A DNA stretch of 64,000 bases from Mycolicibacterium madagascariense (GTDB lineage: Bacteria; Actinomycetota; Actinomycetes; Mycobacteriales; Mycobacteriaceae). Each line of letters opens with the position of its first letter. The stretch's first letter is position 1. Where the stretch lies: assembly GCF_010729665.1 (NCBI RefSeq), contig NZ_AP022610.1, forward strand, positions 1,860,001 to 1,924,000, in the 5' to 3' direction. The notes beneath the pieces are model-generated. The model worked only from the letters and a program-made list of their open reading frames with translations, was not told where the DNA came from and ran no database searches. The translations under genes and the position numbers were made by a program. Positions 46,866-61,776 of this stretch are shown here, one piece after another.

Positions 46866-48350
46866 TCAGAAGAGTCCACGACCGCCCTCACGGATGACGC
46901 CGGGCTTGACGATGGGGTAGAGGTCGTGCAGTTCGGCGTTGCTCAGTTGGGGCAATCGTTGGACCAAGGTGAGGAAGCGGGCGCTTTCGCCGTCGTCGAG
47001 GTAGCGGTCGGCGACGGTCATGAACTTGTCGATGTAATCTGCGCGCCCCCACGGGGTGGGATAGATGAACGCGTTCGCGTTGTCCTTGATGTAGGTATTG
47101 GTGGTGCCGTCGGCGAACGTGATGTCGACTCGGCCGCCAAACTTGCGCTTGGTGAGGTCGGGCGATGAGTAGGCCTTCGTCCACGTTGGGTCGGCTTGGG
47201 TGCGGATCTTGCGCCAGAGTTCCCTGGTGCTGGGCTGGTGGATCCGTTCGTTGCTGAAGGACTTCTCGAAATCCCAGGTACCGTCCTGCAGTGCCACGGC
47301 CAGCATGTAGGGCAACGAGTGGTCGATGGTGCCGCGCGGGGCGTCCGGGTCGTACTTGAGCGGATCGGTGGAGCCGATGACGTCGTGGGTCTCCTCCGAG
47401 GCGGTCACGACGATGGAGTCGATCAGGGTCAAATCACCGATCTCCGAACGGATGTCGAAGGCCAGGTCCATGAATGGTTGGGCCAGATAGTCCGCGGACC
47501 ATTGCTTGGGGATGGACTGGGTCATGTATCTCGGGGACTCTCCAGGTTCGAGGATCTCGACCGTGAAGTCCGCGCCGTCCAGGAGCACGGCGATCGTGCC
47601 GAATGGACCCTCGTAGACCGGTGTGGGGGACTCCTCGCCACGCAGCGCGCGGTCCATCGCTTCGATGGCGGTCTTGCCAACGAAACCGGGGGCATTGCCC
47701 TTCCAGGTGGAGATCAAGCCGGTGCGCATTTGAAAGGTGATGGTGGACAGGAAGGAGCTGAGCTGAACGGCTTGGTAGGCAACGTCGATCGGTACCTGCA
47801 GCAGGGCGGCGAGTCCCACCGGCACGGCGGTGCCTAGGTTGCACATTTGGTCGACCCCGTGATGGTGCAGATCGAAACCGGCGACCAGCCCGAGCATGGC
47901 CTGGTAGCCGTGCACGATGCCGCGGATGGCGTCGCGGCCGGTGCGTCCGGACTGCTGGGCCGCCGCGATCATCGTGCCCATGACGTCGCTGGGGTGTGAG
48001 AGGTCGCGGCCGCCGAACGCGTCGCTCCAATCCAGATGACGCACCGCCGTGCAGTTCGCGTACGCCGCCCACTCGGCGTGCACCGTCACATCTGGGGTCA
48101 GTCCGATGAGCGTGGCGCCGCCGGAACGTGGATGTCCCTTGGCGGCGGCGTGCGCCCGGGCCGGGGGTTCGGTGCTCAGCGCCGCGATCGCCACCGACAC
48201 CGAGTCGATGACCCGGTCGATCACCAAGTCGGTGACGTCGTCCTCGATGTCACCGGCCCGCAGTGCGGCTTGCGCCAGCAGGAACGTCAGTTGCCGCTCC
48301 CGGGGGATCTGGGCGCCGGCCTTCACCGTCGTGACGTGGTGGGTCTTCAT
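46866..48350 (-). CDS. MmgE/PrpD family dehydratase
   Basis: A 494-aa protein of the 2-methylcitrate dehydratase (PrpD/MmgE) family. It shows YANCTAVRHLDWSDAFGG, HPSDVMGTMIAAAQQSGRTG, STWKGNAPGF and ERIHQPSTRELWRKI, with a length typical of PrpD. No citrate-synthase-like PrpC, PrpB lyase or AcnD gene is present, so the methylcitrate cycle is unlikely. Together with PrpF it more probably hydrates, dehydrates or isomerises a branched di- or tricarboxylate made from an opened ring. It is 40 bp downstream of prpF. Confidence 0.85.
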   Translation of the reverse strand: MKTHHVTTVKAGAQIPRERQLTFLLAQAALRAGDIEDDVTDLVIDRVIDSVSVAIAALSTEPPARAHAAAKGHPRSGGATLIGLTPDVTVHAEWAAYANCTAVRHLDWSDAFGGRDLSHPSDVMGTMIAAAQQSGRTGRDAIRGIVHGYQAMLGLVAGFDLHHHGVDQMCNLGTAVPVGLAALLQVPIDVAYQAVQLSSFLSTITFQMRTGLISTWKGNAPGFVGKTAIEAMDRALRGEESPTPVYEGPFGTIAVLLDGADFTVEILEPGESPRYMTQSIPKQWSADYLAQPFMDLAFDIRSEIGDLTLIDSIVVTASEETHDVIGSTDPLKYDPDAPRGTIDHSLPYMLAVALQDGTWDFEKSFSNERIHQPSTRELWRKIRTQADPTWTKAYSSPDLTKRKFGGRVDITFADGTTNTYIKDNANAFIYPTPWGRADYIDKFMTVADRYLDDGESARFLTLVQRLPQLSNAELHDLYPIVKPGVIREGGRGLF

Positions 48351-48390
48351 GATCGACTGCTTCCTTCGCGGATCGTTGTTCGATGACGAC

Positions 48391-49608
48391 TCAATCGCCT
48401 TCGTGGACGGCGCCCGTTCCGGTCGGCGCGGCGGTCGGGATGGGGTGGTCTTCGCGAGGGATGTAGGCCGCGCCGCTCATGAGGCGCCGCGCCGTGCGGA
48501 TCATGGCCAGCTTGGTGAAGGTCGGCACCTCGTCGCCCTCTTCGGCGGCGGTCTGGACCTGGTTGGTCATCACCCCGCCGGGATGTCCGATGCGGAGCTC
48601 CCCTGAATCAGCCGAGGCGGCGCTGGCCCGCGCCACGACCGAACCGGGGACACGGGAGGCGGCGGTCAAAGCGATCGACCCCGTTCCGGCGATGGTGGGG
48701 TGTAGCCGGTCCAGGAATATCAGCCGCACGCGTACATCCATTGCCGTGGAGGGGATCTCGTCGCCGTTGGCGGCGGTGTAGTCCCCGGGGCCGGCGACCA
48801 CCCCGGTCAGCGGCAGACCACGGTTGGGGCTGTTGGCCTCGGTCCACTCATCGACCAGGCCTGCCGCAGCGGCTGCCTTGGCGCGGATCTCGAACAGGGT
48901 CTTCATGGCCGCGGTGTCCTTCTCGATCTCGGCGGCCTGCTCGCTGCCGGTCAGCCCGACGTCGGCGGCGGTGATCCAACAGGTGATGTTGCCCGCGTCG
49001 ACGATGGACACGCTCACCGTGTCACCCGACTCCAGGGTGATGTCGTCGGTCACGTTTCCGGTCGGTAGCAGCGACCCGGTGGCAGAACCGACGGTGCCCT
49101 TCCAGTCCATCGTGATCGGCGCTCCGGTTCCCGGGACGCCGGCGATGGCGGCATCGCCCAGCACCGCGGCGCGTCCACCGACGACCGGGACCTCGGCGAC
49201 GAGGATCTTGTCGGTGTTGGTGTTGTGGATGCGCACCGTCGTCACGGGGACGGTCGGCGTGATCAGTCCTTCGTCGATGGCGAAAGGGCCCACCCCGGCG
49301 GAGATGTTGCCGCAATTGCCGGTGTAGTCCACGCTTGCCTGGTCGAGCTGAACCTGCCCGAACGTGTACTCGACGTCGGCGTCGTCCCGGGTCGAAGGGG
49401 CGACGATTGCCAGCTTGGACGTGACCGGTTTGGCGCCGCCGAGTCCGTCGATCTGGTTGAGGTCCGGTGACCCCATCAAGCGGCACAGCACGGCATCGCG
49501 TTCTGGTCCGGCCGGCGGGATGTCCTGTTCGTGGAAGTACAGTCCCTTGCTCGTCCCCCCACGGGCCAATACCAGGCGCAGGGTTTCTTGATCGGTCGGA
49601 ATCAGCAT
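48391..49608 (-). CDS. PrpF-family isomerase/tautomerase
   Basis: A 405-aa DAP-epimerase-fold protein. It contains LARGGTSKGLYFHE, the catalytic-type DYTGNCGNISAGVGPFA, and RVPGSVVARASA with IGHPGGVM near the C-terminus. Relatives are 2-methylaconitate isomerase PrpF, methylitaconate isomerase and 4-oxalomesaconate tautomerase, all moving a double bond in unsaturated di- or tricarboxylates. Pairing with PrpD suggests a two-step isomerisation-hydration. ATG at 49608. Confidence 0.85.
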   Translation of the reverse strand: MLIPTDQETLRLVLARGGTSKGLYFHEQDIPPAGPERDAVLCRLMGSPDLNQIDGLGGAKPVTSKLAIVAPSTRDDADVEYTFGQVQLDQASVDYTGNCGNISAGVGPFAIDEGLITPTVPVTTVRIHNTNTDKILVAEVPVVGGRAAVLGDAAIAGVPGTGAPITMDWKGTVGSATGSLLPTGNVTDDITLESGDTVSVSIVDAGNITCWITAADVGLTGSEQAAEIEKDTAAMKTLFEIRAKAAAAAGLVDEWTEANSPNRGLPLTGVVAGPGDYTAANGDEIPSTAMDVRVRLIFLDRLHPTIAGTGSIALTAASRVPGSVVARASAASADSGELRIGHPGGVMTNQVQTAAEEGDEVPTFTKLAMIRTARRLMSGAAYIPREDHPIPTAAPTGTGAVHEGD

Positions 49609-50946: not shown

Positions 50947-52182
50947 CTATGGGCGCGAGGATGAGTGGCGACGTTCGCGCTCGAGAGCGGTGACCAGTTG
51001 TGGGGAGTTCACGGCGAGTGCGACCCGCCGAGTCCAGGATTCGTCGGTGAAGCGGCCACCGGCGAGGACCTCGAATCGACGCAACCGGTAATTGACCGTG
51101 TTGCGATGACAGTAGAGAGCCGCGGCGGCGGCATTCACGGATCGGTTGTGCCGCAACCACGTTCGGACCGTGTCCACCAACGGGTGAGACCGCTCGGGGG
51201 GAAGGTTCAGTACCTGTCCCAGGCTCGTCACGACCAGGGTGTTGGTAACGCGGGGGGAGCTTGCCAGCATGATGTCGAGGATGTCTGTGTCGTAGCGGAC
51301 GACGGGCTTGCGTGCCGACGTGCTGGCTACCGCGACTCCTGCCTCGGCGCAGGCCGCCGCTGCGTGTTCGATGGACGTGAACGGGGAGCTCAGACCTACA
51401 GGGCTCGCGGCGCGCTCGTACACCGCCGATGCGATGTCCTCGATGCGCGCTGCGGCGTGGCGCAACGACAGAAGGACGGTCTGAGAGCGAGTTCCGCGTC
51501 GCACCCAGGCCGAGTCCACTGCCCTCAGGGCACTCATGAAGAGCTCCAGATCAGTCTGTGCCGCAGGAGAGGTGTGGTGTGCAACGTCGAGGACGACGAA
51601 ATGGCCGCGTCGTGGAATGTGAAGCGCGGCAATGCCGTCCCAGTACTTCGGGTCCTGCAGTGGTGTGCAGGAGAGGACGGTGTCGAGAAGAGACGCCTTC
51701 ACATCCGCCTGCCGGCGAGCCGTTGGGCCTCCCAGTTCTGAGTACCTGGCCTCCACGTGTAGCGAATATTGGTCGAGCAATCCGAAGATCCGCGGCGTCA
51801 GCGCGATGAGGGCCTTGCCGTCTGCTACCTCGTCGCTCACCTGTCGGGCGAGGTGTCGCCAGATGCCGGCCCCGCCCACGCGATGACTGTGCAGCACGTC
51901 GGGCAGCGTCGCGCCCTGGTCCAGTCGGAGATGGATCGCCCTGTCGATCGTTTCGATGTTTGCAGCAGTCATGCGTTCGGACCCTCTGCCGACTGAACCG
52001 AGAAACTCGGTGAAGACGTCTCGCATGACGAAACGAACGGCCTCGCCGAGGCCATCGTCGGGTTGCCAGCCGGGAACGTCGTCGGCGCGCAAGGTGGTGA
52101 CGACGTCGTCGACGAGGTCCATGACGCCGCTCGACGCGCGCCGGGTCAGGCTCTCGACATCCGCGGTGGAGGACATTGCCAA
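50947..52182 (-). CDS. PucR-family transcriptional regulator, first copy
   Basis: A 411-aa regulator. The N-terminal half has LRLDQGATLPDVLHSHRVGGAGIWRHL; the middle has a GGDEF-like fold typical of CdaR/PucR proteins (RRGHFVVLDVAHHTS). The C-terminal PucR HTH is NAAAAALYCHRNTVNYRLRRFEVLAG. PucR proteins activate catabolic genes in response to a pathway compound. It sits between the leftward hydrolase-prpF block and the divergent ubiD operon, ideal for controlling both. ATG at 52182; a second ATG two codons later is possible. Confidence 0.9.
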   Translation of the reverse strand: MAMSSTADVESLTRRASSGVMDLVDDVVTTLRADDVPGWQPDDGLGEAVRFVMRDVFTEFLGSVGRGSERMTAANIETIDRAIHLRLDQGATLPDVLHSHRVGGAGIWRHLARQVSDEVADGKALIALTPRIFGLLDQYSLHVEARYSELGGPTARRQADVKASLLDTVLSCTPLQDPKYWDGIAALHIPRRGHFVVLDVAHHTSPAAQTDLELFMSALRAVDSAWVRRGTRSQTVLLSLRHAAARIEDIASAVYERAASPVGLSSPFTSIEHAAAACAEAGVAVASTSARKPVVRYDTDILDIMLASSPRVTNTLVVTSLGQVLNLPPERSHPLVDTVRTWLRHNRSVNAAAAALYCHRNTVNYRLRRFEVLAGGRFTDESWTRRVALAVNSPQLVTALERERRHSSSRP

Positions 52183-52694: not shown

Positions 52695-54269
52695 ATGGCG
52701 AACATGACGCTCAAGGAATGGGTGCAGAAGCTCGACGACGCCGGCCTGTTGAACCGGATCACCGACGAGACCCGGGTCGACGAACTCCCACAGATCATGG
52801 AGGACAACCCCTCCCAGGCCGTGCTGGTGGAGAACGTCAAGGACTGCCAGGTTCCCTTCCTGTCCAATGCCTACGCCACCGAGGAGATGTTCACTCTGGC
52901 GCTGGGCTGCACGGCCGAAGAGCTACCCGCGGAGATCGCGCGCCGCAAGAAGGCTCCCCGCGACACGGTGACGGTCCAGACGTCGCCGTTGAAGGACAAC
53001 GTCATCACCGGTGACGACCTGGACCTGGCGATGCTGCCGTGGTTCTGCCACCACGAGCACGACGGCCATGCATTCATCAACGATTGCAACGTCGTCAGCC
53101 GCAACCTCGGCACCGGCCTGCTCGACACCGGCGAGTACCGGTTGCAATGGCGCAAGCGCAACGAGACCGGCATCTCGCTGTCGAACCCGTCGCGCAACAC
53201 TCGGCTCAACATTCAGGCCTATGTCGATGCTGGTCGAGAGATGCCGGTGGCGTGCGTGATTGGCGGCACCCCGCATCTCAAACTCTCGCAGATGTACACC
53301 GTCGAGGGCTACGACGACTGGCAGGTGCTGGGTGGGCTGCTCGGCGAGCCCGTCGAATTGGTGAAATGCGAGACCAATGACCTGATGGTGCCGGCCAGCG
53401 CCGACATCGTGCTCGAGGGCCGAATGATGGTCAGCGAGGGCCCCGTTCACGACGAAGGGCCCTACGGCGAGTACATGGTCACCTACGGCGGGGGCCTGCA
53501 ACACATGTGGCGGATCGTGTGGGACTGCATCACTCACCGCAACGGCGCGATCTACGAGTATGCGTCCATCGCGGGCCTTCACCCGGGTAGGTCGGACATG
53601 GTCGACATGACCTTCACCCTCGCCGCCGACATCTACGATGCGCTCAAGAGCGCAGCCATCGACGTCGTCGACCTCTACTTGCCCCCAGACGCGGTAAGCC
53701 AAATCGCCTACCTCAAGATTCGACCCCATCGCGCGGGAGATGCCAACAACGCCTTGGCATTGATGCTGACCTGTTCGCGACAGATGGTCCCCAAGATCGC
53801 CTACGTGTTCGACGACGACGTCGACATCCGCGATCCAGGCGACGTCTCCTGGGCGTTCGGCCTGCGGTTCAACCCCGAACAAGGCACGCTGATCCTGCCC
53901 CGGCAGAACGTCAACTTCCTCGACCCCAGCCTGACCACGTCCGAGCCACCGTTCTTCATCTCCAAGATCGGATTCGACTGCACCAAGCCGACGGTGGGCG
54001 ACCTGAGTCGATTCGACCGGGCGGTGGTCGTGCCCCCAGCCGTCGTGCCCGACGACCTCACCATTCTGGACACCGATCAGCTGACCGACGCGCTGGAGAA
54101 GTTCATCCGTCAGGCGCCCCGGGCGTGGCGCGAGGTGGTGGCCGAATTCGCCGGGCACCCCTACCCGGCGCTCTATCACGCCTTCGGTCGGCTACGGGAT
54201 CGGCTCGGGCGGCGTGAGGAGGACTCGCCCACGTTCCCCTACCGATTCATCGACACCGGCTCAGAGTGA
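52695..54269 (+). CDS. UbiD-family prenylated-FMN decarboxylase
   Basis: A 524-aa UbiD-type enzyme. It reversibly decarboxylates aromatic, heteroaromatic or alpha,beta-unsaturated acids using prenyl-FMN. Motifs: SNPSRNTRLNIQAYVDAGREMP, CVIGGTPHLKLS (substrate and cofactor region) and HDEGPYGEYMVTYGGG, where Glu254 and Glu259 match the E-x4-E/D part of the catalytic E-R-E network. It starts the rightward operon that also encodes UbiX, which makes the cofactor. Its actual substrate is not identifiable from sequence. ATG at 52695; ATG 52704 is an alternative. Confidence 0.88.
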   Translation: MANMTLKEWVQKLDDAGLLNRITDETRVDELPQIMEDNPSQAVLVENVKDCQVPFLSNAYATEEMFTLALGCTAEELPAEIARRKKAPRDTVTVQTSPLKDNVITGDDLDLAMLPWFCHHEHDGHAFINDCNVVSRNLGTGLLDTGEYRLQWRKRNETGISLSNPSRNTRLNIQAYVDAGREMPVACVIGGTPHLKLSQMYTVEGYDDWQVLGGLLGEPVELVKCETNDLMVPASADIVLEGRMMVSEGPVHDEGPYGEYMVTYGGGLQHMWRIVWDCITHRNGAIYEYASIAGLHPGRSDMVDMTFTLAADIYDALKSAAIDVVDLYLPPDAVSQIAYLKIRPHRAGDANNALALMLTCSRQMVPKIAYVFDDDVDIRDPGDVSWAFGLRFNPEQGTLILPRQNVNFLDPSLTTSEPPFFISKIGFDCTKPTVGDLSRFDRAVVVPPAVVPDDLTILDTDQLTDALEKFIRQAPRAWREVVAEFAGHPYPALYHAFGRLRDRLGRREEDSPTFPYRFIDTGSE

Positions 54270-54304
54270 CTGACACACCGTCGATCAGATGAAGGGAGAG
54301 GTCG

Positions 54305-54343
54305 ATGCCAACAACGATGCCCCGCGCAGGTGCTCGGGTATGA
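54305..54343 (+). CDS. Twelve-codon leader ORF before the LLM gene
   Basis: A mini-ORF (MPTTMPRAGARV) with a strong GAAGGGAGAGG ribosome site 4-14 bp upstream. Its TGA (54341-54343) overlaps the ATG of the LLM gene (54340) as ATGA, while the LLM start itself has no good ribosome site. This fits translation of the monooxygenase by termination-reinitiation from a leader peptide. Confidence 0.45.
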   Translation: MPTTMPRAGARV

Positions 54344-55449
54344 AGCTGGGTGCGCTACTGATGCCGTCGCATCCGCCGGGACGATCCATCCGGCGAGGCC
54401 AACAGTGGGATCTCGAGGAGCTCGTCCGATTGGATCGCTACGGTTTCAGTGAAGCTTGGATCGGTGAGCACTTCACGGCTCCCTGGGAGCCGTGCCCCGC
54501 ACCCGACCTGCTCATCGCCCAAGCCCTCGCCAGTACGCACGACATCCTGCTGGGTCCGCTGGGTCACCTGCTTCCGTATCATCATCCGGTCGAATTGGCC
54601 CACCGCGTCGCCTATCTCGACCACATGGCGCAAGGGCGATATCAGCTGGGCGTCGGCATCAGCGCACTGCCCACCGACCACGACATCTTCGGACTCGACC
54701 CGAGCGGCGGACGCAATCGCCGCATGACGTTCGAGGCGCTGGAGCTCATGACGACGCTCTGGCGTGACGGTGGGGGAGCGTTCCGGGGTGAGTTCTGGAC
54801 CAGCAACCAGCCGGGGCGCTGGCCCGTGGACATCCGCCACCACCTCCTGCCGTATCAGCGGCCACACCCGCCGATCGCGATCTCTGGAATGACACCCGAT
54901 TCGCAGAACCTCAAGCTCGCCGGTGAGAAGGGCTATCTCCCAGTGAGTTTCGGCATCAGCCCCGACCCGGCTGTCACCGCAGCCCACTGGGATTCAGTGG
55001 CCGAAGGAGCAGCGCGATCCGGCCGGATCGCGGATCGCACGCAGTGGCGGGTCGTGCGCGACGTCTACGTCGCACCCTCGGACGCCGAGGCCCGATCGTT
55101 GGCGATCAACGGCATCATGGGCCGATGCTGGCGCGAGTTCCTCCTGCCCCTCTACAAGGCCAGCGGACTGACACCGCTGCTCAAGCATGACCAGGCGGTC
55201 TGCGACGACGACGTCGACGTCGACTACGTGGCCGGGCACCTATGGTTCGTCGGCTCACCCGAGACGGTTTCGACGCGAATCAACGAACTACAAAGCGCCA
55301 CCGGTGGTTTCGGTCATCTCCTGATGGTGTCCTACGATGCGACCGACGAGTTCGAGCAGTGGGATCGCAGCCTGCATCTGCTGGTGAACGAGGTCCTGCC
55401 CACGTGCGCGATGCCCCGTCCCGCGGGTGTCACCGGGGGCCCTCGATGA
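54340..55449 (+). CDS. LLM-class flavin-dependent monooxygenase
   Basis: A 369-aa bacterial-luciferase-like oxygenase: KLGALLMPSHPPG, FSEAWIGEHFTAPWEP, LGPLGHLLPYHHPVELAHRVAYLD, GRYQLGVGISALPTDHDIFG and PPIAISGMTPDSQNLKLAGE. This subgroup (limonene/alkanesulfonate monooxygenase types) uses FMNH2 from a separate reductase; RutA-type members open N-heterocyclic rings. No reductase gene is adjacent. ATG 54340 is preferred over 54289 because the conserved N-terminus begins there and it overlaps the leader ORF stop. Its own stop overlaps the VOC gene. Confidence 0.85.
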   Translation: MKLGALLMPSHPPGRSIRRGQQWDLEELVRLDRYGFSEAWIGEHFTAPWEPCPAPDLLIAQALASTHDILLGPLGHLLPYHHPVELAHRVAYLDHMAQGRYQLGVGISALPTDHDIFGLDPSGGRNRRMTFEALELMTTLWRDGGGAFRGEFWTSNQPGRWPVDIRHHLLPYQRPHPPIAISGMTPDSQNLKLAGEKGYLPVSFGISPDPAVTAAHWDSVAEGAARSGRIADRTQWRVVRDVYVAPSDAEARSLAINGIMGRCWREFLLPLYKASGLTPLLKHDQAVCDDDVDVDYVAGHLWFVGSPETVSTRINELQSATGGFGHLLMVSYDATDEFEQWDRSLHLLVNEVLPTCAMPRPAGVTGGPR

Positions 55450-55823
55450 GTTACGTCGCGTTGGCCACGCAGAACTTCGACGAAGTCACCCAGTTCTACC
55501 GCGAGGTCCTGGGTTTCGACGTGGTCACCGAGTGGGATCGACCACGGGGCCGGGGAACTCGGTTCGACCTCGGCGGCGGACTTCGTCTGGAGATCCTCGA
55601 CAATTCCCGCGAACCGGTTCCCCGCGCGCTGGGCGAGGGCGGCGATCGCGTCCACGTCGTCGTGGAGGTGGACGACGTCCACGCCACGTGGTCCCAACTG
55701 TCGATCGACGCACCGGCGCCCGCGGCGACGTCCTGGGGCGCCAGTCTCTTCGGCATCCGCGACCCCGACGGAACCGCAATCACGTTCCTGCAGTGGACGA
55801 CCAGTGAGGGGAGCCGACGATGA
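55446..55823 (+). CDS. VOC family protein
   Basis: A 125-aa single VOC module pair: YVALATQNFDEVTQFYREVLGFDVV, GTRFDLGGGLRLEIL, VHVVVEVDDVHATW and GIRDPDGTAITFLQW. Metal-ligand positions are less clear than in true dioxygenases, so it may be a binding or isomerase member. It overlaps the LLM stop (ATGA) and the UbiX start (ATGA), so all three are translated as a coupled unit. The longer upstream frame is only a shadow of the LLM gene. Confidence 0.82.
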   Translation: MSYVALATQNFDEVTQFYREVLGFDVVTEWDRPRGRGTRFDLGGGLRLEILDNSREPVPRALGEGGDRVHVVVEVDDVHATWSQLSIDAPAPAATSWGASLFGIRDPDGTAITFLQWTTSEGSRR

Positions 55824-56464
55824 CGGTGGCGCGGCGAGTCATCATCGGGATGTCCGGCGCCAGCGGCGCCATCTACGGCATCCGGCTCTTGGAGGTCCTG
55901 CGCCGGGTCGAGGACGTGCAGACCCACCTGGTGATCAGCGCGGCCGGGCGCCGGACCATTGCCTTGGAGACCGATACCTCGCCCCAACAGGTCGAGGCGC
56001 TGGCCGATGCGGTGCACAAGCCCGGTGACATCGCAGCCTCGATCTCGTCGGGGTCGTTTCGCACCGCGGGCATGATCGTCGCCCCGTGCTCGATGAAGAC
56101 GGTCTCGGGAATCGCCACCTCGTACTCCGACAACCTGCTCCTACGCGCGGCCGACGTGGTTCTCAAGGACCGCCGGCGCCTGCTCCTGCTGGTTCGCGAA
56201 ACGCCGTTGCATCAAGGACACCTGCGGCTCCTGTCTCAGGTGTCGGAGATGGGCGCCATCGTGATGCCCCCTGTCCCGGCGTTCTATCACCGGCCGCGCA
56301 CCCTGGGCGACGTCATCGATCAGACGGTGAACCGCGCACTGGACCTGATGGACATCGACCTTCCCGCCGACCTGTTCCCGCGGTGGTCGGGACCTGGCGG
56401 ACCAACCGTCCCTAATGCGACCGAGCTCAACGGCAATGGCTACCAACATCATCCGATGGCATGA
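55820..56464 (+). CDS. ubiX: UbiX-family flavin prenyltransferase
   Basis: A 214-aa flavoprotein that attaches dimethylallyl to FMN to make prenyl-FMN for UbiD. It has GMSGASGAIYGIRLLEVL, CSMKTVSGIATSYSDNLLLRAADV, RRRLLLLVRETPLHQGHLRLL and MPPVPAFYHRPRTLGDVIDQTVNRALD, the classic UbiX/Pad1 set, with a C-terminal tail slightly longer than usual. Its location in the ubiD operon makes the decarboxylase self-sufficient for cofactor. Start ATG 55820 overlaps the VOC stop. Confidence 0.93.
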   Translation: MTVARRVIIGMSGASGAIYGIRLLEVLRRVEDVQTHLVISAAGRRTIALETDTSPQQVEALADAVHKPGDIAASISSGSFRTAGMIVAPCSMKTVSGIATSYSDNLLLRAADVVLKDRRRLLLLVRETPLHQGHLRLLSQVSEMGAIVMPPVPAFYHRPRTLGDVIDQTVNRALDLMDIDLPADLFPRWSGPGGPTVPNATELNGNGYQHHPMA

Positions 56465-59676: not shown

Positions 59677-59928
59677 ATGATGCACCACGTCGTTGACGAC
59701 AACCCTGTACTGCAGCGTTTGATCCGCGCCCGCCAGGCCTGTGAGCAGGCCACTGGCGGGCAGGAAGCCGAAGCGGCGCACCGCAACCTTCGCCTTGCAG
59801 CGGAGGCTGCCCGCGACGCCGAGGTGAGCTGGTCCATCATCGGCGAGGCCCTCGGAATCGCGCGGGGCAACGCCTATAAGCGGTACCGGCGAAAGCCCGC
59901 ACGACGAAGGGGCGCCAGTCCCCGGTGA
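59677..59928 (+). CDS. Small helix-turn-helix protein
   Basis: An 83-aa protein. The N-terminal half is an Ala/Arg-rich helix (LQRLIRARQACEQATGG, EAAHRNLRLAAEAARDAE), and the C-terminal half is an HTH, SWSIIGEALGIARGNAYKRY, ending in a basic tail RRKPARRRG. It may bind DNA. No ribosome site is clear; ATG 59677 or 59680. Its link to the ammonia-lyase-like gene 123 bp downstream is unproven. Confidence 0.55.
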   Translation: MMHHVVDDNPVLQRLIRARQACEQATGGQEAEAAHRNLRLAAEAARDAEVSWSIIGEALGIARGNAYKRYRRKPARRRGASPR

Positions 59929-60051
59929 CGGCCGCGCCCCCGATCGGCGGCGCGCCGTGATCGTCGGTGGTCTCGGCGCGCGATAGCCTGCCCGCACGGA
60001 GCGCGTCTGACCCCGACGAGCACGTCGTTGGTCTGGTCGGAGGAAGAGCCC

Positions 60052-61776
60052 ATGAGCGTTCGACGTGCATCGGGGGCCTCCCGGCTGCTGATCGGGGCCG
60101 TCGCCGTCGTATTGGTCGCTGCCGCAATGGGTCCCGGGGCGGGCGCGCCGGTGACGCAGGCGGCACGGATACCGTGCGAGCACGGCGGCGCCCCCGTCAC
60201 GCTGGACGGAGCTCACCTCACGATCGCCGACGTGGTGGCGATCGGCCGAGGGGGAGCGTGCGTCGACATGCCTGCCTCGGCGATGCAACGGGTGCAGCAG
60301 TCCTTCGACGTCCTATTGGAGGCGGCCCGTGAAGACAAGCCGATCTACGGCCTGACGCGCGGCGTCGGAGAGAACAAGGACAAGACGGTCTTCCCCGGCG
60401 GCCAGATCACCGACGAAGGACGATCACTGTCGGAGGCGTTCAACGCCAACCTGTTACGGGTGCAGGCGACGGCGACGGGACCGCCGGCGCGCGTCGAGAT
60501 CGTCCGCGCCGCAATGGCCATTCGGCTCAACGCCATGCTCGTCGGGCACACCGGCGTACGGGGCGTCGTCGTGCAAGGGCTCGTCGACTTCCTCAACCGC
60601 GGCATCACCCCGGTGGTGCCGACGCAGGGAACGGTCGGCGAGGCGGACATCGACCTTCTGGCGCACGTCGGTCTGGCGCTGATGGGGGAGGGCGACGTGT
60701 CCTATCGGGGGCGCACGGTGCCCGCCGCGACTGCGTTGCGCGACGAGGGGTTGCGGCCGGTGACCCCGTTCGGCAAGGACGCCTTGTCGACGTTCAGCTC
60801 CAACGCCTACTCAGCGGCCGTCGCGGTGTTCTCGACCTACGACGCCGGCACGGTGCTGGCACGGGCGCGGCAAGTCTTCGCGCTGAGCATGGAGGGGCTC
60901 AACGGCAACGTGGCGCCGTTCCTCGCCGAGGTGCAGCAGGTGCGGGCCTTCCCTGGGCAGGCGGCTGCCGCCGCGGCCGTGCGCGACGAACTCCGCGGCA
61001 GCTTCCTTTACTCGGTGGATCCTGCACGCGCGCTTCAAGATCCGTTGAGCTACCGGACGTTCAGTCAGGTGTCCGGCAGCGCCGAGGACGACCTCGCGCG
61101 CCTCGTGAATCTGTTGCAGACCCAGCTCAACAGTGCCGATGACAATCCCACCGTGCTCATCGGGGCGGTTCCACCGCCGGATGCCGCGTCACAGGAACGG
61201 GCCTACTACGTCGACGGCAACGGCGTGCGCGGTGCGGTGATTCCCACCGCGAACTTCGAGCCGCTTGCGTGGGTGTTGCAGCTGGAGTCGCTCTCGGCGG
61301 CCCTGGCGCACGTGTCCAGCACGGCGACCGAGCGCATCCTGCGTCTCGGCACACCCGAATTCACCCACCTATCGCGGTTTCTCACCGCCAACCCGTCGAT
61401 GATCGGCTACGCCGCCATCCAGAAGATTCCGGCTGACTTGAGCGCGAGGAACCGACGATTGGCCGAGGGGGCGTCGCTGGACGTGATCCCGGTGGCCGGC
61501 GACATCGAAGACACCTCGACCAACGCGGCGGCAGCGGCGACGAATCTTGGTGACATCGCCGACAATACGTTCGCGATCCTGGCGGTGGAGTTGATGCACG
61601 CCGCCCAGGCGGTCGATCTCCGGCTGCGGACCAACGGGGCATTGCCCTTGGGTCGGGGAACCCGGCCGTTCTTCGAGGCGTACCGCCGAGTGGTGCCGTT
61701 CCTGGACGCGGACCGCAATCTCAGCCCCGACGTCGCCCGGTCGGTGGCGTTCCTCCAAGGACCCGACGACACCTGA
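60052..61776 (+). CDS. Secreted aromatic amino acid ammonia-lyase homologue lacking the MIO triad
   Basis: A 574-aa protein of the HAL/PAL/TAL superfamily with an N-terminal signal peptide (RLLIGAVAVVLVAAAMGPG, cleavage about 31-38). Family landmarks: IYGLTRGVGENKD with Tyr99, ITPVVPTQGTVG, LAHVGLALMGEG, LQDPLSYRTFSQVSGS, SADDNPTVL, ALAHVSSTATERI and DTSTNAAAAATNLGDI. The cofactor triad Ala-Ser-Gly, expected after GTVG, is Glu197-Ala198-Asp199 (GTVGEADIDLLAH), so MIO cannot form. Deamination by the known mechanism is therefore unlikely; binding, isomerase or another lyase role is possible outside the membrane. ATG 60052 follows GGAGGAA. Confidence 0.85.
   Translation: MSVRRASGASRLLIGAVAVVLVAAAMGPGAGAPVTQAARIPCEHGGAPVTLDGAHLTIADVVAIGRGGACVDMPASAMQRVQQSFDVLLEAAREDKPIYGLTRGVGENKDKTVFPGGQITDEGRSLSEAFNANLLRVQATATGPPARVEIVRAAMAIRLNAMLVGHTGVRGVVVQGLVDFLNRGITPVVPTQGTVGEADIDLLAHVGLALMGEGDVSYRGRTVPAATALRDEGLRPVTPFGKDALSTFSSNAYSAAVAVFSTYDAGTVLARARQVFALSMEGLNGNVAPFLAEVQQVRAFPGQAAAAAAVRDELRGSFLYSVDPARALQDPLSYRTFSQVSGSAEDDLARLVNLLQTQLNSADDNPTVLIGAVPPPDAASQERAYYVDGNGVRGAVIPTANFEPLAWVLQLESLSAALAHVSSTATERILRLGTPEFTHLSRFLTANPSMIGYAAIQKIPADLSARNRRLAEGASLDVIPVAGDIEDTSTNAAAAATNLGDIADNTFAILAVELMHAAQAVDLRLRTNGALPLGRGTRPFFEAYRRVVPFLDADRNLSPDVARSVAFLQGPDDT

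Follow-up and report, generated by a model that had tools for sequence, protein, structure and literature searches.

In the histidine, phenylalanine and tyrosine ammonia-lyases (HAL, PAL and TAL), the MIO cofactor enables the amino group, otherwise a poor leaving group, to leave; a quaternary trimethylammonium group leaves without it. Ergothionase converts ergothioneine to trimethylamine and thiourocanate without MIO, as described in a 2026 paper (PMC13405746). The same paper judges the enzyme to be rare, BLAST having returned only proteins named HAL, PAL or TAL, and warns of poorly annotated ergothionase homologues (PMC13405746). A literature search covering titles and the beginnings of abstracts found nothing on exported ergothionases.

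Here we analyse a lyase gene in a 64,000-nucleotide stretch of Mycolicibacterium madagascariense DNA (contig NZ_AP022610.1, positions 1,860,001 to 1,924,000 of the forward strand), the whole of which we call the window. The product is to be filed under the MIO-less ergothionase-type family and not as an ergothionase in the strict sense. A cofactor-free enzyme of this kind is already known in ergothionase; what is unusual here is an export signal combined with an altered substrate pocket.

Results

An earlier note on this DNA described an open reading frame at 60052-61776 with Glu-Ala-Asp at residues 197-199 and ammonia-lyase homology along its full length, all of which we confirm. The frame is intact, the TTG at 60028, earlier than the ATG at 60052, being a mechanical ORF start only, and the GC content of the gene is 68.6%, against 67.5% for the window. 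PF00221 (Lyase_aromatic) is the single full-length Pfam match (residues 56-545, E 3.8e-124). NCBIfam gave matches below cut-off only; the highest-scoring were to HAL models that require 524 and 539 bits and reached about 301; the score of 300.6 bits against TIGR01225 (hutH, cut-off 539.15) leaves the protein outside the curated hutH family. The genome (two contigs, 5.94 Mb) holds two PF00221 genes, the window lyase and a normal HutH with a Cys-Ser-Gly triad at C1:4650920. The features of the gene, all on the + strand, are as follows.

60052..61776, + strand: coding sequence of a predicted exported, MIO-less ergothionase-type lyase, 574 aa (ORF, Pfam, PDB sequence and fold matches)
60039..60043, + strand: Shine-Dalgarno-like GGAGG, eight bases 5' of the ATG at 60052 (sequence)
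60052..60162, + strand: predicted N-terminal export segment, residues 1-37, likely cleaved after Thr-Gln-Ala37 (hydropathy; cleavage by eye)
60346..60381, + strand: Tyr99 to Asp110, covering the putative catalytic Tyr and, at Lys109 and Asp110, the NKD stretch that marks ergothionase-type rows (alignment)
60460..60465, + strand: Val137-Gln138, putative substrate-selectivity pair, Ser-His in HALs and most cytosolic rows (alignment)
60637..60648, + strand: Gly196-Glu197-Ala198-Asp199, replacing Gly-Ala/Cys-Ser-Gly-Asp and making MIO impossible (alignment)
61045..61047, + strand: Leu332, Tyr in HALs (alignment)
61423..61425, + strand: Lys458, the ergothionase-type Lys, Tyr in 19/20 HALs (alignment)
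61507..61509, + strand: Glu486, common to HAL (alignment)

The best PDB sequence match is the ergothionase of Treponema denticola (6s7j; E 3e-92, 313 bits), followed by a probable HAL at 172 bits. An AlphaFold2 model built from 54 sequences has a mean pLDDT of 90.8, with residues 1-31 mostly low, and a fold search with this model ranked three 6s7j chains first to third (TM 0.92-0.93 by target length, rmsd 2.6-2.7); HALs and aminomutases of the same fold came after them.

To place the protein we used 120 homologues listed of 1198, a second listing of 120 of 1881, and 79 loci taken from 80 of 133 relatives. Flanks of these loci never exceeded 7 kb and were often shorter, and start codons of locus proteins were picked by rule. 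A tree of 147 rows (quick method, midpoint root) splits 139 ergothionase-type rows from 8 HAL rows with an SH-aLRT of 100. The ergothionase-type rows comprise a cytosolic group that includes T. denticola, C. symbiosum and Blautia (21 tree rows, support 87) and, beside it, a clade that includes the window lyase (118 tree rows, support 98) and whose inner branching is only partly resolved. Within the clade, the 21-row subclade of the window lyase has a support of 100; its 20 distinct sequences share 62-74% identity with the window protein. A larger alignment, which omitted proteins shorter than 480 aa and the partial loci L046 and L056, held 187 clade rows (182 distinct), 125 cytosolic rows and 20 HALs of the window's order. 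In this alignment the cytosolic group was defined by list as P0122 onward plus six loci; the tree contains 15 of the former and all 6 of the latter.

The triad that forms MIO, required of HAL, PAL and TAL ammonia-lyases, is absent from the window lyase. HALs of the same order read G-(A/C)SG-D where the window reads G-EA-D, and MIO cannot form because the triad Ser is gone and one residue is deleted. The claim that Glu-Ala-Asp at this site precludes the cofactor is thus borne out, with the qualifications that the replacement is family-wide and that the one-residue deletion, said to follow the triad, lies within it, Asp199 aligning with the Asp after Ala-Ser-Gly. In ergothionase-type rows Gly-Glu-(Ala/Gly)-Asp takes the place of the Gly-(Ala/Cys)-Ser-Gly-Asp of ammonia-lyases. 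Glu occupies column 197 in 174/187 clade rows (the others having Gln in 12 and Ala in 1) and in 123/125 cytosolic rows (one Gln, one Ala); the column is Ser in 20/20 HALs. The earlier note named close homologues with Ala-Ser-Gly as what would refute it, and none has this triad in 122 aligned rows (the window protein, the 120 homologues listed of 1198 and the T. denticola enzyme; one row is gapped there). These homologues and the tree refute the idea that a single HutH copy has recently lost MIO. Since the genome has a second, normal HutH, a decaying copy that lost its triad by mutation might have been imagined; with a motif that is family-wide and deep in the tree, an intact frame and only 32-37% identity to HALs of the same order, we regard it as extremely improbable.

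The active site differs from that of HALs in further residues. The position of Tyr99 is Tyr in all 332 aligned rows, as the earlier note's statement that this residue is retained would have it, and Tyr99 and Glu486 are common to ergothionase-type rows and HALs. The accompanying statement that the other active-site landmarks are retained was wrong, for relative to the 20 HALs the window has Lys109 (Ala in 20/20), Ser249 (Asn in 20/20), Leu332 (Tyr in 20/20), Gln138 (His in 20/20) and Lys458 (Tyr in 19, Val in 1), all of them changed, and Asn131 likewise stands where 20/20 HALs have Gln. Of these, Lys109, Asn131, Leu332 and Lys458 are ergothionase-type residues, at columns by which ergothionase-type rows can be told from the 20 HALs. 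Asp110 is constant in ergothionase-type rows, yet is also found in 3/20 HALs. We take the ergothionase-type residues, among them Lys109, Leu332 and Lys458, to correspond to catalytic residues of the T. denticola ergothionase. A signature of Tyr99, Lys/Arg109, Leu/Ile332, Lys458 and Glu486 is matched by 180/187 clade rows and 120/125 cytosolic rows and by 0/20 HALs, and its sites match in 21/21 rows of the window subclade. It is not absolute, with Arg109 in 6/187 clade rows and Lys458 absent from 7/187 clade and 5/125 cytosolic rows.

These residues bear on what the kept fold might do, for which a secreted binding protein, a MIO-independent lyase or an isomerase had been suggested. The lyase stands, in the form of the ergothionase family. 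The isomerase is backed by no relative that we found, and the binding protein fits poorly with a subclade in which the residues held invariant are ones typical of ergothionases and not of ammonia-lyases. A catalytically dead secreted protein that binds ligand, or an isomerase, would account for the lack of MIO, the export segment and the lack of a linked pathway; given the invariance of the ergothionase-type residues in 21/21 rows and the activity of MIO-less relatives as enzymes (PMC13405746), we find it unlikely.

Export was assessed by a crude test that takes the highest mean hydropathy over any 12 residues of the N-terminal extension and sets a threshold of 1.8. The window extension scores 3.14, so the export segment called in the earlier note is, by this hydropathy test, present as a prediction. 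The test is passed by 175/187 clade rows, 0/125 cytosolic ergothionase-type rows and 1/20 HALs; the 12 failing clade rows include two from Enterococcus in which the extension is lacking, some with a late start and some that narrowly miss the threshold. Predicted export is a trait of the clade and not of the window copy alone. To the earlier note's question whether the Gly-Glu-Ala-Asp motif and the signal peptide mark a clade, the answer is that Gly-Glu-(Ala/Gly)-Asp defines one and that the export trait extends over a large part of it.

The second unusual feature lies at residues 137-138, which are Val-Gln in 21/21 rows of the window subclade. Position 138 is His in all Ert-linked (20/20), flavocytochrome-linked (19/19), cytosolic (125/125) and HAL (20/20) rows, and over the 187 rows of the whole clade it is His in 107, Thr in 59 and Gln in 21. 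Six subclade positions depart from the residue common to Ert-linked and cytosolic rows, and only 138 is 100% His in the four groups. We take the Ser-His pair of HALs to be the counterpart of the selectivity residues of MIO enzymes, and Glu486 presumably occupies the position of the marker that is Glu in HAL and Gln in TAL and PAL. Two residues at the selectivity region of MIO enzymes are reported to steer substrate choice strongly, and a His-to-Phe change turned a Tyr lyase into a Phe lyase (PMC9002059); the Glu/Gln difference is given as a second selectivity marker (PMC3992019). By this alignment, Glu486 appears to favour an imidazole ring in the substrate.

The window lyase looks like a standalone, sporadically held gene. 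Upstream of it lie genes for UbiD, a luciferase-like monooxygenase, a UbiX-type flavoprotein, an alpha/beta hydrolase and a PucR-type regulator, and downstream genes for a LysR regulator, a tautomerase and a short-chain dehydrogenase (the last by eye). No genes of ergothioneine-pathway type adjoin it. The host genome has no thiourocanate hydratase (its sole urocanase is HutU), thiohydantoin desulfurase or BCCT transporter, and no ErtD over cut-off, the best score being 127 of 600 bits. It does encode EgtD (TIGR03438, 364 bits, cut-off 291), with which the host can make hercynine and probably ergothioneine. No orthologues of the lyase were found among 36 same-genus relatives, three of which gave matches, all HAL-like at 32-34% identity, and at E 1e-70 only the genome itself matched among 396 of the phylum. 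Close copies exist in other assemblies, because two shorter database proteins, P0026 and P0033, match the window protein at 100% identity over 47% and 88% over 53% of the query, respectively. Orthologues are also present in the soil-type MAGs L023 and L024. An operon with the flanking genes was considered and rejected: genome G035 keeps the LysR-tautomerase-dehydrogenase set at 81-83% identity, and the 11-kb stretch taken from it contains nothing that matches the lyase. Among the other 59 genus genomes, the flanking PucR gene has no match at E 1e-100 and the LysR gene is matched in one at E 1e-80. The lyase gene may have been acquired by transfer; base composition gives no sign of a foreign origin and so does not show it.

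Other parts of the window surroundings can be described briefly. UbiD and UbiX-type genes at 52695-56464, which enclose a luciferase-like monooxygenase gene and a glyoxalase-like ORF, likely form a prenylated-flavin decarboxylase cluster. MmgE/PrpD and PrpF family genes adjoin each other at 46866-49608, the PucR-type regulator is at 50947-52182, and the PucR and lyase genes have between them a small helix-turn-helix-like ORF of about 82 aa (59680-59928).

The DNA of the 79 loci was searched by tblastn with six query proteins. A urocanase-type hydratase was found at 30 loci, a thiohydantoin desulfurase type at 25, an ErtD type at 16 and an ErtE type at 10, with two or more of these four ergothioneine-catabolism-type genes at 25/79; a BCCT betaine-family transporter was found at 6/79, exactly the six loci of the cytosolic group (6/6). 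Six of nine hydratases scanned exceed the thiourocanate hydratase cut-off (L094, L035, L050, L072, L091 and L078), those of L028 and L058 are HutU, and that of L069, clipped by the locus end, falls short. All four desulfurases scanned (L084, L035, L073 and L050) pass the curated cut-off, as do the ErtD of L089 and the ErtE of L091 for theirs. For the wider clade, such neighbour genes support a chemistry that yields (thio)urocanate.

Several arrangements recur among these loci. A flavocytochrome-c-like reductase lies near the lyase at 20/79 (L071:6929-10209 and 19 in Shewanella, Campylobacter, enterics and Sutterellaceae); that of L071 passes TIGR01813, small cytochromes accompany some of the reductases, and the reductase may take the lyase product as electron acceptor. 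Exported MIO-less lyases adjoin histidine-utilisation genes in L028:4316-8590, L058:56-5801, L065:5229-8602 and L070:6314-10736, with HutC over cut-off in all four and HutU next to the lyase in L028 and L058, which suggests that these enzymes make urocanate from hercynine (histidine betaine). Cytosolic Clostridium and Blautia lyases (L081, L083, L087, L090, L095 and L096) have a BCCT transporter on one side and, judged by eye, a large xanthine-dehydrogenase-like protein on the other. The locus in a record titled Bacillus subtilis SK6B4 (L097) is near-identical to that of Pseudochrobactrum, and the record is probably contaminated or mislabelled.

When neighbours are set against position 138, the 55 of the 79 loci (from 80 of 133 relatives) with any of the six neighbour types all have His138. 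None of the five loci with Gln (two) or Thr (three) has such a neighbour, and 17 of 72 His loci likewise have none. The association (Fisher p 0.0013) is a lead only, the rows being related and the flanks short. Position 138 may divide ergothionase-type lyases by substrate.

Discussion

Starting from its homology, predicted fold, lost MIO triad, ergothionase-type residues and hydrophobic N-terminal segment, all of which the analysis shows, we consider it likely that the window lyase is an exported, MIO-independent imidazole-betaine lyase that releases trimethylamine outside the cytoplasm. Like ergothionase, it would use the HAL fold without MIO, eliminating trimethylamine from an imidazole amino-acid betaine by acid-base catalysis in which Tyr99, Lys109/Asp110, Lys458 and Glu486 would take part, and its product would be of (thio)urocanate type; Glu486 is what points to this substrate class. 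MIO could be lost in the ergothionase branch because trimethylammonium leaves without it, which is established for ergothionase and presumed for the branch of the window. Counted against the betaine-lyase reading are the lack of adjoining pathway genes, the absence from the genome of thiourocanate hydratase, thiohydantoin desulfurase, BCCT and an ErtD over cut-off, Gln138 in place of His, the exceptions to the signature, and a prediction of export drawn from hydropathy alone.

The PAL/HAL fold, the Gly-Glu-(Ala/Gly)-Asp motif, Lys109/Leu332/Lys458 and the tree grouping all place the protein in the ergothionase-type family. For ergothionase in the strict sense, the pocket pair is Val-Gln and not Ser-His, and pathway or betaine-transporter genes are neither adjoining nor elsewhere in the genome, in a search that did not include ErtE. 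With Val-Gln as the selectivity pair, the substrate may be ergothioneine itself or a relative of it, and the betaine-lyase reading takes two narrower forms.

In one of them, the enzyme would be a plain ergothionase that tolerates Val-Gln and acts on ergothioneine, its export giving the cell access to environmental ergothioneine as a nitrogen source. Family membership by PDB match, tree and fold, together with Ert-type neighbours in the wider clade, makes this a serious possibility, though Val-Gln in 21/21 subclade rows and the absence from the genome of the Ert genes searched for weigh against it, as does the lack of Ert-type neighbours at all five Gln/Thr loci, a small sample to be read beside the 17/72 His loci that also lack them. 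In the other form, which we advance tentatively, the same chemistry would act on another betaine, such as hercynine, S- or N-methylated or oxidised ergothioneine, or an indole or phenol betaine. The changed pair aligns, on our assumption, with the region that governs substrate choice in the superfamily, and the genome encodes EgtD, which makes hercynine, and HutU; yet the HAL-type Glu486 is kept, Gln could still hold an imidazole, and no co-located pathway names a substrate. With similar reserve, the Val-Gln subclade might be regarded as an exported MIO-independent lyase acting on a non-ergothioneine betaine, a new activity in this fold encoded by a standalone gene in a host with EgtD.

The observation holds up, and a known enzyme accounts for most of it; the remaining interest lies in the exported, pocket-altered subclade. 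Many family members among the homologues listed (120 of 1198) are named histidine ammonia-lyase, and no NCBIfam model exceeded its cut-off on the four family members scanned. The short residue signature sets ergothionase-type members apart from the 20 HALs tested, and makes it testable how common the breakdown of ergothioneine or other betaines is and what the exported forms cleave.

Of the systems compared, the T. denticola ergothionase (PDB 6s7j/6s7q) shares with the betaine-lyase candidate its fold, Gly-Glu-(Ala/Gly)-Asp and the equivalents of Tyr99, Lys109, Leu332, Lys458 and Glu486. Relative to that enzyme, to which it is about 36% identical, the window lyase is extended at the N terminus by its export segment, carries an insert near residues 370-397 and reads Val-Gln in place of Ser-His at 137-138. 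The exported Ert-linked relatives, for example those of Pseudochrobactrum, Agrobacterium, Paracoccus, Achromobacter and Comamonas loci, belong to the same clade and likewise have an export segment and no MIO, but differ in carrying His138 and having pathway genes alongside. HutH has the same fold and the equivalents of Tyr99 and Glu486, and is distinguished by its MIO triad and by a second Tyr where the window lyase has Leu332.
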